This document shows positions 13,465 through 46,162 of a stretch of DNA of 64,000 bases, piece after piece (the stretch's first letter is position 1; each line of letters starts with the position of its first letter). The notes under the pieces were generated by a model. That model was not told where the DNA came from and searched no databases. It saw only the letters and a list, made by a program, of their open reading frames with translations. The stretch is taken from contig NZ_NIDE01000014.1 in assembly GCF_002197845.1 (NCBI RefSeq), forward strand, positions 248,001-312,000, in the 5' to 3' direction. This stretch comes from Fimbriiglobus ruber. GTDB lineage: Bacteria; Planctomycetota; Planctomycetia; Gemmatales; Gemmataceae. The position numbers and the translations under genes are program-made.

Positions 13465-13503
13465 TGGGGTGGGGTTGCGTCCCCGGTGTCCCCGGGCGGG
13501 ATC

Positions 13504-13664
13504 CCTCGTTGTACCCCACAAGTCTGCAACGTCTTTCGTAACAAGATGTTGCGGACACGGCATTCGGAAGGCCCAAATCCGCTTCGCCGCTTGGAAAACG
13601 CTTGTTTTCCAGGCCATTCAGAAGGGGCATTTTCGCTGCTTCCGACTTATGGGGTACAACGAGG
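13504..13664. mobile_element. 161-bp MITE-like element, copy 1
   Basis: The element starts CCTCGTTGTACCCCA and ends with its complement, giving terminal inverted repeats of about 21 bp with one mismatch (CACAAGTC at one end, CATAAGTC at the other). Flanking 8-bp direct repeats GCGGGATC (13496-13503 and 13665-13672) are perfect target duplications. It encodes no transposase. Removing the element and one duplication restores an almost perfect hairpin CCGGTGTCCCCGGG-CGGGAT-CCCGGGGACACCGG. A second copy in the opposite orientation lies at 43753-43913 and has the same length. The space between the glycosyltransferase stop and alaS is otherwise empty. Confidence 0.9.
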
Positions 13665-13840
13665 GCGGGATCCCGGGGACACCGGCCCAAACCATCCACC
13701 CATTCCCATCCCGACCATCCCCCGCGCGAACACGTCCCGCCGCCCGCCTGTCTCCCTCTTGACCTTTTCGCCCCGAAGTCGTGTCTTTCTCCGTACCGCC
13801 CGCCCGCTCCCGGGCCGGGGCGATATCGTCCGAGGGTGCC

Positions 13841-21574: not shown

Positions 21575-21612
21575 CCCCGGTGTCCCCGGGCTCCCGCCCG
21601 GGGACACCGGGG
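21575..21612. repeat. Perfect 16-bp-stem hairpin, same family as the copy-1 MITE target
   Basis: CCCCGGTGTCCCCGGG (21575-21590), loop CTCCCG, then the exact complement (21597-21612). The arms match those of the hairpin interrupted by the MITE at 13504-13664, and the loops differ by one base when read from the opposite strand. This is an unoccupied member of that hairpin family, lying between a DUF1501 promoter region and a lipoprotein-like gene. Confidence 0.85.
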
Positions 21613-23917: not shown

Positions 23918-24086
23918 CTTCAGTCCGAAGGACTGGTGGCCCTCAGCCCAGGGCAACGCCTTGGGTTGAACGGATACCAGAACATTCAGCCTGAAAGGCT
24001 GATACACAGGGGCGCCATTGGTCGATGGGGATGCCGTCCCCAGGGCGTTGCCCTGGGCTGAGGACCACCAGTCCTTCGGACTGAAG
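23918..24086. repeat. Long inverted repeat, REP-like (CTTCAGTCC...CCCAGGGCAACGCC family)
   Basis: Arms of about 45 bp (23918-23962 and 24042-24086) are near complements and start CTTCAGTCCGAAGGACTGGTGG and CAGCCCAGGGCAACGCC. The centre holds a smaller palindrome CAGCCTgaaAGGCTG. Related units lie at 43538-43752. The block sits 38 bases after the icd stop and could fold into a long hairpin; it may be a transcript end or a dispersed repeat. Confidence 0.8.
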
Positions 24087-43537: not shown

Positions 43538-43752
43538 GGGGGGCCGCCCAGGGCGTTGCCCTGAGTGAGGGGCCACGCGGGGGCCGCCCAGGGCGTTGCC
43601 CTGGGCTGAGAACCATCAGTCCTTCGGACTGAAGACGGAAGTAACGAGGTGATCTGGTCGTACCAAGTCTTTCCAACGGTGGCGGTTTTCACCCTGAAAG
43701 GGTGACGGTTCTCACCCTGAAAGGGTGATGGTTCTCAGCCCAGGGCAACGCC
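43538..43752. repeat. REP-like repeat cluster upstream of queA
   Basis: Two copies of GGGGGCCGCCCAGGGCGTTG (43538 and 43578), a CAGTCCTTCGGACTG hairpin (about 43617-43631), and two copies of CACCCTGAAAGGGTG (43690-43704 and 43712-43726) make this a cluster of small palindromes. The motifs match the element at 23918-24086. The last unit, CCCAGGGCAACGCC, is interrupted by the MITE at 43753. Confidence 0.85.
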
Positions 43753-43913
43753 CCTCGTTGTACCCCATAAGTCGGAAGCGGCGAAAATGCCCCTTCCGAA
43801 TGGCCTGGAAAACAAGCGATTTCCGAACGGCGAAGCGGATTTGGGCCTTCCGAATGCCGTTTCCGCAACATCTTGTTACGAAAGACGTTGCAGACTTGTG
43901 GGGTACAACGAGG
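43753..43913. mobile_element. 161-bp MITE-like element, copy 2
   Basis: The same element as 13504-13664 in inverse orientation, with ends CCTCGTTGTACCCCA and its complement. Flanks are a perfect 8-bp duplication GCAACGCC (43745-43752 and 43914-43921). Removing the element and one duplication restores the palindrome CCCAGGGC-AAC-GCCCTGGG, a unit found elsewhere in the window without insertion. It encodes nothing. Both copies are 161 bp with only a few base changes, which suggests recent or selected mobility by a transposase elsewhere. Confidence 0.92.
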
Positions 43914-43988
43914 GCAACGCCCTGGGACCAACGCACACCCAGTTAACGGCCCGTATTTCCGGCAAGCCGCCCTACATCATCTGGAATA

Positions 43989-44628: not shown

Positions 44629-46162
44629 GGGTCTGGCAAATCTTTCTGGCGCTAGGGTACGAGGGGTGCCAGAATGGGGGGACAAATGCCGCAACCCTTG
44701 ACCGAGGCCCGTAATGGAACCGATGCCCCGACTCGACCGTGACGCGTACATCGCGACGATGCGCCAGCAGATGGAAGCGATGCGCGGACCAGTCGCCGAC
44801 GCCATCAACAACGCCAAGGACGGGGAGATCATCGCCGGCAGCGAATGTCCGGTCCGCGATCTCTTCGGTACTCTCCGACGGAAGGCCTTTGAGGTCGGAC
44901 TCCAGATGCGAACGGATGCGGCGGAAGCCGCTTTTTCCCCCTCCGCAGGAAGTCGGGTCCCAGAAGAAGCTGCGGAATAAGGGCCGTCAAGACTACACGG
45001 TGCTGACGGTGAACGGCCGGGTGTGTGTGACGCGGATTCGCTGGCACGGTTCGGACGGCAGTCGCACGGTGGTCGACGGTTATCTCGACCGGGCCGAGCG
45101 GACCATTAGTGTGGGGGTCCGGGAGATGGCCTGCCGGTTGAACGGCGGGGGGACGAACTTCGACCGAACGGCCGAGAATTTGGCGCAGGTGGCGCAGGTC
45201 AGCGCGAGCGGGGAAACACTGCGGACGTTGATCGAAGACGAGGGCCGCAAGGTGGTGAAAGCGTTCCGCGAAGGGACCTTGCCGATCACCTGGACCGCGA
45301 AGGACTGTGTGGTCGAACCCGGGACGGCCGGGCCGACGCGGGTGTACTTCGGGTGCGACGGGGTGATGGCACCGATGGTCACGGAAGGGGAGAAGGCGAA
45401 ACGGCGTCAGAACATCAAGGCGAAACGGCGTGGGCGGACGTGCCGCCCGTTGCCCCGAGCCAAGGCGGGAGCGGATCAGAAGTATAAGGAGTTCAAGCTC
45501 GTCACGTATTACGACGAGCCGAAGAAGCACCGGTTGGTACTGGGTACGAAGGGGAACGGCCAGGAGGCAGGTCGGATCATGCGTCGGTTGGCGGGTCGGA
45601 TCGACTTGGCGGCGGCGGCGGAAAAGGTGGGCAACGTGGATGGGGCGCCGTGGATTCGCGGGCAGGTCGAGGGGCGGTGTCTGCCGCTGGACGCATTGGG
45701 GCTCGATTTCTACCACCTGGCGGAGAACGTGCATAAGGCCCGGCGGGTGGTGTACGGGGAATCGGACTCGGCGGGCATGGTCTGGGCGGGGGACATCTTG
45801 CACGCGTTCAAGCACGACGGGTACGACCTCACGTGGGAGAAGCTGGTCACGTGGCGGGCCTTGTGGCGTGGGCCGAAGCGGGCGGCGGCCGACGCGTTGA
45901 TGAACTACGTGCGCGAGCGTCGGGAGATGATCTTGTATCCGGAGTTCGCGGCGAAGGGTTGGCAAATCGGCAGCGGTCCCACGGAATCGTGCTGCAAAAC
46001 CCTGACGCAGAGGCTCAAGGGCTCGGGGATGCGGTGGGACGCCGACAACGCCGAAGCGATCATGGCACTGGAATCATTGCGCGAAAGCAACTTGTGGAAG
46101 ACGTATTGGCAAACCCAATTGTCGCAAACGACTTAACGACGCCATAAAGATTTGCCAGACCC
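44629..46162. mobile_element. ISKra4-type insertion sequence (1534 bp)
   Basis: Inverted ends GGGTCTGGCAAATCTTT and the complement at 46146-46162 match with one mismatch in about 23 bp (bases 18-23 are CTGGCG and ATGGCG). The interior is almost entirely the transposase frame pair. No clear target duplication is seen, so the duplication length is unknown or lost. It lies between a secreted protein gene and an acyl-carrier-like gene. Confidence 0.88.
44714..46136 (+). CDS. ISKra4-family transposase with a frame change
   Basis: The first frame (44714-44980; MEPMPRLDRDAYIATMRQQ) encodes the ~88-residue N-terminal part. The main domain lies in the +1 frame up to 46136. Both overlap at GCTTTTTCCCCC (44931-44941 holds the T5/C5 run), a plausible site for programmed frameshift or polymerase slippage. 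Joined, the protein runs AEAAF then PPPQEVGSQKKLRNKGRQDYTVLTVNGRV, as in other ISKra4 transposases. Candidate DDE residues are YFGCDGVMAPMV, GLDFYHLAENVHKA and GSGPTESCCKTLTQRLKGSGM. It could be a natural split gene or a single-base mutation. Confidence 0.85.

Follow-up and report, generated by a model that had tools for sequence, protein, structure and literature searches.

Palindrome-centred insertion of a putative MITE and its Tn5/IS50-type partner insertion sequence

The element and its flanks in the window

The window, by which we mean the whole 64-kb stretch of DNA that was analysed, contains two copies of a short element that interrupts palindromes. Copy 1 is located between a glycosyltransferase gene and an alanyl-tRNA synthetase gene, and copy 2, which is inverted relative to copy 1, is located between two ORFs taken for genes, the right one of which has no Pfam match. 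The features of the two sites, together with uninterrupted palindromes of the same types (A and B, described below), are as follows.

13483..13496, left arm of the copy 1 palindrome, CCGGTGTCCCCGGG; long-arm type A with its own loop, without the GTAG tag
13496..13503, left target duplication of copy 1, GCGGGATC; 10-bp version 13495-13504
13504..13664, + strand, MITE copy 1; 161 bp as first drawn, probably 159 bp (13505-13663)
13665..13672, right target duplication of copy 1, GCGGGATC; 10-bp version 13664-13673
13672..13685, right arm of the copy 1 palindrome, CCCGGGGACACCGG
21575..21612, uninterrupted long-arm type A palindrome, an unused site of the target type (core C14:269585-269602)
24039..24057, uninterrupted type B palindrome, an unused site of the target type (C14:272040)
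43586..43606, type B palindrome without an insertion, 146 bases ahead of copy 2 (C14:291588)
43739..43746, left arm of the copy 2 type B palindrome, CCCAGGGC
43745..43752, left target duplication of copy 2, GCAACGCC
43753..43913, - strand, MITE copy 2
43914..43921, right target duplication of copy 2, GCAACGCC
43919..43926, right arm of the copy 2 type B palindrome, GCCCTGGG

A sequence-only reading of the window had described two 161-bp copies with terminal inverted repeats and perfect 8-bp direct repeats, and had claimed that a palindrome is rebuilt when the element and one repeat are removed. Both descriptions are confirmed at these positions. The termini of each 161-bp copy are CCTCGTTGTACCCCA...TGGGGTACAACGAGG, which form terminal inverted repeats. 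Without the element and one repeat, the copy 1 site becomes CCGGTGTCCCCGGG-CGGGAT-CCCGGGGACACCGG and the copy 2 site becomes CCCAGGGC-AAC-GCCCTGGG; an inverted-repeat search recovered the arms at 13483-13524/13644-13685 (copy 1) and at 43739-43753/43912-43926 (copy 2).

A search of the element's own 12.4-Mb genome identified 29 full-length copies, which have a pairwise identity of 95-100% and 146 invariant columns out of 161. Perfect 8-bp direct repeats flank 27 of the 29. Of the remaining two, L023 has a single-base mismatch between its two 8-bp repeats, and L025 is flanked by the complementary sequences GCTCCCGC and GCGGGAGC within long complementary arms, which fits the remnant expected from recombination between two copies in the halves of one inverted type A pair.

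The perfect repeats of the original description stand at these 27 copies; its lengths, 161 bp for the element and 8 bp for the duplication, probably do not. Each true terminus of the MITE probably lies one base inside the one first drawn, giving a 159-bp element with a CT start and a 10-bp duplication of the form G-N8-C. The MITE copies alone cannot fix this boundary because the target is palindromic. Relatives support the CT start: by end calling, the homologue L135 has T...A outside CT, and one homologous IS has 9- and 10-bp repeats when given CT ends (L139/L178 versus L179/L181), which would otherwise be 7 and 8 bp. IS50-subgroup ends are reported to begin with CW (PMC2266710). When aligned with the end layout of Tn5, the ends start with CT. 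Ends with a CC start and an 8-bp repeat are a possible alternative.

Three other observations were made in the window. Just ahead of MITE copy 2, at 43689-43728, a small palindrome (TCACCCTGAAAGGGTGA) is present twice. A 465-aa ORF at 44739-46136 has a sequence reminiscent of an ISKra4-type transposase; a Pfam search of this ORF returned nothing at E<=0.001. An Rfam search of window positions 12500-45000 returned nothing at gathering score.

Palindromes that hold the element

For every MITE copy, the element and one repeat were removed and the restored site was checked for a palindrome. The sequence-only reading would have failed had most other genomic copies been in non-palindromic sites or without 8-bp duplications; this was not the case, and palindrome centres hold all 29 copies. 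All but one of the 29 are offset from the centre by 0 or 0.5 bp; the other, L023, was placed by eye, its flanks being those of a type A site once the mismatch is set aside. Type A (CCCGGGC-NNNN-GCCCGGG and long-arm forms) contains 23 of the 29 copies, one of them with another loop (L003). Type B (CCCrGGGC-AAC-GCCCyGGG and relatives) contains five (L001, L002, L024, L027, and L028), and L008 lies in a third, weaker GC-rich palindrome with a 5-bp perfect stem. The MITE is inserted in either orientation, both within A and within B. All five type B copies, with the MITE in both orientations among them, have the same off-centre register, with GCAACGCC on the AAC strand, and never the mirror register.

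When the 29 MITEs and the one IS described below were scored with CT ends, the flank-pairing score was at least 5 in 29 of 30 sites (the exception being L023, with a score of 4), compared with 2.8% of 63,164 window positions as background; these are not 30 independent tests, as most sites belong to one repeat family. The 64-kb window contains 70 palindromes with a stem of at least 7, and three simulated windows contained 51, 39, and 28, so many of the window's 70 are due to chance.

The two window sites had been called unrelated palindromes. They are indeed different palindromes, each with the element at its centre, but the occupied sites are mostly members of two repeat families rather than unrelated one-offs. 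Exact, uninterrupted matches to type A number 81 in the genome, many of which are inverted pairs spaced 84-125 bp from start to start, and a strict pattern for type B gave 67 matches. In 30 overlapping loci (L030-L059), in which some sites are counted twice, all 23 matches on one strand have CGTAGA ahead of the type A palindrome; the long-arm type A sites (L059, L239, and window copy 1) are without the GTAG tag. Comparison of L032 with L034 provides an uninterrupted A element as the paralogous empty site for an interrupted one.

The genome has three Y1_Tnp matches, on C17, C5, and C14. Around the C17 gene (L241, C17:1000838-1004173) there are three MITEs, each in a type B palindrome, and one B site that is empty. 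A long-arm type A palindrome lies 56 bases away from the C5 match, and the C14 match has neither such a palindrome nor MITE-bearing B sites nearby. Because of the GTAG tag beside A and the Y1_Tnp genes near some sites, A and B look like REPs, and the tagged A units look like the GTAG kind as this is presented in passages of PMC3733652.

Viewed by eye, the GTAG-tagged inverted pairs at L030-L053 appear conserved at their ends and inner flanks and variable between copies in the middle, and they look like REP doublets whose core varies, not like an ordinary MITE.

A Tn5-like partner element and its relatives

An IS with terminal repeats matching those of the MITE, which the sequence-only reading had anticipated, was found by a terminal-repeat scan, and it occupies the same type of site.

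C1:1418241-1419833, partner IS (L060), 1593 bp, bounded by two facing exact ends

This IS has the same ends as the MITE and sits in a type A palindrome, with GCGGGAGC as its duplication (GGCGGGAGCC in the 10-bp version). It is the only intact copy found, and there is a broken copy on C20. Judged from three printed copies of the 29, the MITE and the IS have in common the terminal 20-21 bp at each end alone. The other loci from the terminal-repeat scan (L061-L068) are one-sided or chance end matches. One of these, the truncated IS copy L063, has no clear palindrome adjoining its end, a result that does not favour palindrome targeting.

The partner IS carries a single ORF of 503 aa. Its product matches the Pfam families Tnp_DNA_bind (PF14706, 73.8 bits), DDE_Tnp_1 (PF01609, 44.6 bits), and Dimer_Tnp_Tn5 (PF02281, 48.7 bits), as well as NF033590 (312.7 bits). 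It also matches the solved Tn5 transposase 1mus (E=1.6e-32), and all six of its solved matches are Tn5 transposase or its inhibitor form. In a seven-sequence alignment, D106, D213, and E364 (spacers 106 and 150) are invariant, as are Y357, R360, E364, and K371. The IS4 family motifs, as given in passages of PMC2266710, are D(60-110)D(100-150)E and Y(2)R(3)E(6)K. The 503-aa protein has both motifs and is a single-orf DDE transposase, as in the IS4 family, and its Tn5-type N-terminal DNA-binding and C-terminal dimerisation domains are those of the IS50 subgroup. The same source describes IS50-subgroup ends as CW------Y---CA-A--W- with direct repeats of 8-9 bp (PMC2266710). With a CT start, the ends of the partner IS (CTCGTTGTACCCCATAAGT) match six of these seven positions; position 9 is A rather than Y, and several relatives have T there. 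The repeat is 8 bp long with a CC start and 10 bp with a CT start, and relatives with a CT start mostly have 9 or 10 bp.

Being short, flanked by direct repeats, and bounded by the terminal repeats of this IS, the element has the features of a MITE and is a putative derivative of the partner IS. It is probably moved in trans by the partner's transposase, as the shared ends and the shared target type suggest.

Relatives of this transposase were searched for in 95 genomes of the family, 32 of which had a match at E<=0.001, and in 397 genomes drawn from the class, 44 of which had a match at 1e-40. In addition, a seven-sequence profile was compared with genome contigs, and the best 80 of 126 relatives were kept, giving 79 loci (L159-L237). 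A total of 121 loci were given to the end caller: 13 of the 29 in L072-L100 (16 were left out), the 28 in L131-L158, the 79 in L159-L237, and L060. The end caller worked from terminal repeats, gave extra weight to direct repeats, and took no account of palindromes; at contig-edge loci (L145, L158, and others) the position of the transposase is approximate, which may have cost ends. Filtering for a terminal-repeat identity of at least 14/19, a tail of at least 8, and enough flank retained 80 of the 121 loci, and removal of 15 with the same flank left 65 non-redundant insertions. Two of the relatives' loci, L179 and L185, are near-copies from one genome. Viral contigs contained one distant relative (L238), which was left out of later analysis.

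Pairing between the left and right flanks was scored from a start 2-7 bases out to beyond the eighth base, and the null took all positions of that locus in turn, each treated as if it had a direct repeat of 9 or 10 bp. Against their own flanks, 35 of the 65 insertions had p<=0.01 (expected <1) and 38 had p<=0.05; the partner IS itself had p=0.011. An arm score of at least 8 was reached by 32 of 65 insertions with their own flank, compared with 1.8% of 4160 pairings with swapped right flanks. When grouped by end type, p<=0.01 was reached by 19 of 27 insertions with CTCGTTGT-like ends, 4 of 7 with CTCATCGT-like ends, and 3 of 3 with CTTKTTATACC; the corresponding counts are 7 of 24 for TTATAC-/TTACCC-ended insertions and 2 of 4 for other ends. 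The flanks of the 65 insertions form a direct repeat in 27 cases, a perfect inverted repeat in 6, and neither in 32. Of those with a direct repeat, 11 of 27 had p<=0.01 (12 if the partner IS is counted), compared with 24 of 38 without one, bearing in mind that a direct-repeat null flatters sites with inverted flanks. The core end types, three in number, include 14 insertions with a direct repeat, and 9 of these passed. The remaining 30 of the 65 insertions missed p<=0.01, and six (L073, L075, L144, L147, L202, and L229) have direct repeats yet an arm score of 0.

The stems vary widely, both in cases with a direct repeat (CCCAGGCC/GGCCTGGG in L072 and TTCCCA/TGGGAA in L187) and in cases without one (GCCTGGGGTTTC/GAAACCCCAGGC in L133 and TAAGCGTTCGGCG/CGCCGAACGCTTA in L076). 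In G075, where each contig provides one flank, CCAGGGG or CCGGGGG lies outside the end in 5 of 5 cases, which fits half a palindrome. Palindrome-centred insertion recurs in relatives with different palindromes, the sequence of which differs between species.

The palindrome habit does not form a single clade in a tree of 52 rows (13 of the 65 insertions, which have no usable protein, were excluded): the habit has to change 14 times on it, a number as low as this being reached in 31 of 500 shuffles. One fork is palindromic in 21 of 29 rows and the other in 8 of 23 (Fisher p=0.011, for a split picked after inspection of the tree).

As a separate observation, the loci with perfectly inverted 9-bp flanks are L132, L133, L141, L152, L176, and L077.

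Target choice and comparison with known systems

Because insertion is centred and the complementary arms differ in sequence across species, these results show that the symmetric partner half matters. We propose that the transposase of the partner IS would act on the 19-21 bp ends common to the MITE and the IS, and that its complex would capture targets of strong two-fold symmetry, here GC-rich inverted repeats, such that the target centre would fall inside the 8-10 bp separating the two strand-transfer points. REP-like repeats would supply most such targets in this genome, and the MITE and the IS would accumulate at palindrome middles. The dimeric complex likely reads two half-sites and the central duplex bases, in what would be an exaggerated form of the reported symmetric preference of Tn5; hairpin extrusion is possible in this scheme and unnecessary to it. 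On balance, the element is probably non-autonomous, a MITE belonging to a Tn5/IS50-type IS of the IS4 family that goes to symmetric duplex targets. The observed parts of this explanation are the elements, the duplications, the centring, the shared ends, the transposase type, and the recurrence in relatives; to these we add, by inference, mobilisation by the partner transposase and reading of a duplex rather than a hairpin.

The sequence-only reading had proposed a transposase that recognises either secondary structure or the symmetric centre of its target. Insertion at the symmetric centre stands, and recognition of structure is the less likely reading. We favour duplex reading because few repeat types are used in the genome and because the off-centre register in type B is fixed in five of five copies, which points to reading of sequence. 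The same observations speak against a transposase that recognises an extruded hairpin or cruciform, with sequence counting only through stem strength: there are 70 palindromes with a stem of at least 7 in 64 kb, yet the 30 insertions use few GC-rich types, and the register in type B is constant. Nevertheless, the complementary stems of varied sequence could alternatively reflect structure reading, as they differ by species and yet a site's own flank pairs far above swapped ones. The window has 18 places that resemble half-sites (CCNGG-N8-CYNGG), and 13 of them pair below 0.85, as do only 2 of 56 oriented entries from occupied sites (28 of the 30 sites; L023 and L025, which have no perfect repeat, were omitted). 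Low-pairing half-sites are almost unoccupied, which half-site reading alone does not predict and which structure reading would explain. The inverted duplications of some relatives, perfect over 9 bp in 6 of 65 insertions and one mismatch away in seven more without a direct repeat, could likewise arise if both ends attacked one extruded strand, but they are also explicable by recombination of two copies in an inverted REP pair (as fits L025) or by template switching between arms. Taken together, we regard structure reading as unlikely. A broader version, in which the whole Tn5-like DDE lineage attacks extruded hairpin tips regardless of sequence and the inverted duplications are a one-strand footprint, seems to us quite improbable.

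The duplex reading was also weighed against joint copying of the MITE and its REP, for example by a Y1 transposase acting on the REP, such that one old insertion was multiplied. In its favour, repeat family A holds most of the copies, and MITEs within A differ from one another slightly less (2.8) than do MITEs in A from those in B (4.0). However, the copies have repeats of their own in A, in B, and in the third palindrome, A and B each hold the MITE in both orientations, the partner IS occupies the same kind of site, and the same habit is seen with other palindromes in other species, so this explanation is largely refuted and very unlikely. Random insertion with persistence only in harmless intergenic palindromes, to which the position of both window copies between genes or ORFs might point, is scarcely credible and is refuted by the centring, which cannot arise from selection against gene damage, and by the finding of none of the 29 copies outside a palindrome.

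The nearest precedent for palindrome-centred insertion is ISRm22 of Sinorhizobium meliloti, for which passages of PMC1525189 report nine of nine copies in REPs, an insertion point at the palindromy axis, 6-bp repeats, and three copies with hybrid repeats. Within the IS4 family it is placed in subgroup IS4Sa, and its target arms are conserved (PMC2266710). Like the present element, ISRm22 is an IS4-family element at the axis of REP palindromes; it differs in its ends (CA... as in IS4Sa, compared with CT... here) and its shorter repeats, and the passages on it mention neither a MITE nor relatives using other palindromes.

REP-targeting IS elements are known from five families, as summarised in part of PMC1525189. 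They include IS1397, ISKpn1, and ISPsy8 of the IS3 family and IS621, ISPpu9/10, and ISPa11 of the IS110 family, all of which go to REP/PU palindromes, and for ISPsy8 the insertion point is on the axis of symmetry of a hairpin predicted at its target (PMC1525189). The Tn5 target is itself reported to be palindromic, with G/C at the repeat ends (as cited in those passages of PMC1525189). The IS3- and IS110-family inserters have transposases of other families than the present Tn5-like element. Target choice of the IS110 type is RNA-guided. IS231 is an IS4-family element that prefers the inverted-repeat ends of Tn4430; it differs from the present element in subgroup and in target. Tn5/IS50 resembles the partner IS in its transposase domains and in 19-bp ends of similar layout. 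The target preference of Tn5 is weak and is not known to depend on long palindromes, whereas insertion here is confined to palindromes.

In the open-licence literature, we found no report of palindrome-centred insertion by an IS50-type element or of the present lineage. As far as that literature shows, two things are new: an IS50-type lineage, mostly from Planctomycetota records, with recurrent palindrome-centred insertion into palindromes that differ from one another, and the amplification of a MITE family in the kind of palindromic site that its IS50-type partner occupies. Few DDE transposases are understood as well as that of Tn5, which is a laboratory workhorse. With natural Tn5 relatives that go to palindrome centres, one could test directly how target symmetry or structure is read by this fold, and a palindrome-directed insertion tool is conceivable from them. 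The system also links three repeat layers, namely REP-like palindromes, an IS that lands there, and a MITE of that IS.

One further Tn5-like IS among the relatives (L079, G052:C49) lies in a palindrome that is very long and near-perfect, but its 9-bp direct repeat is within one of the arms and not at the tip.
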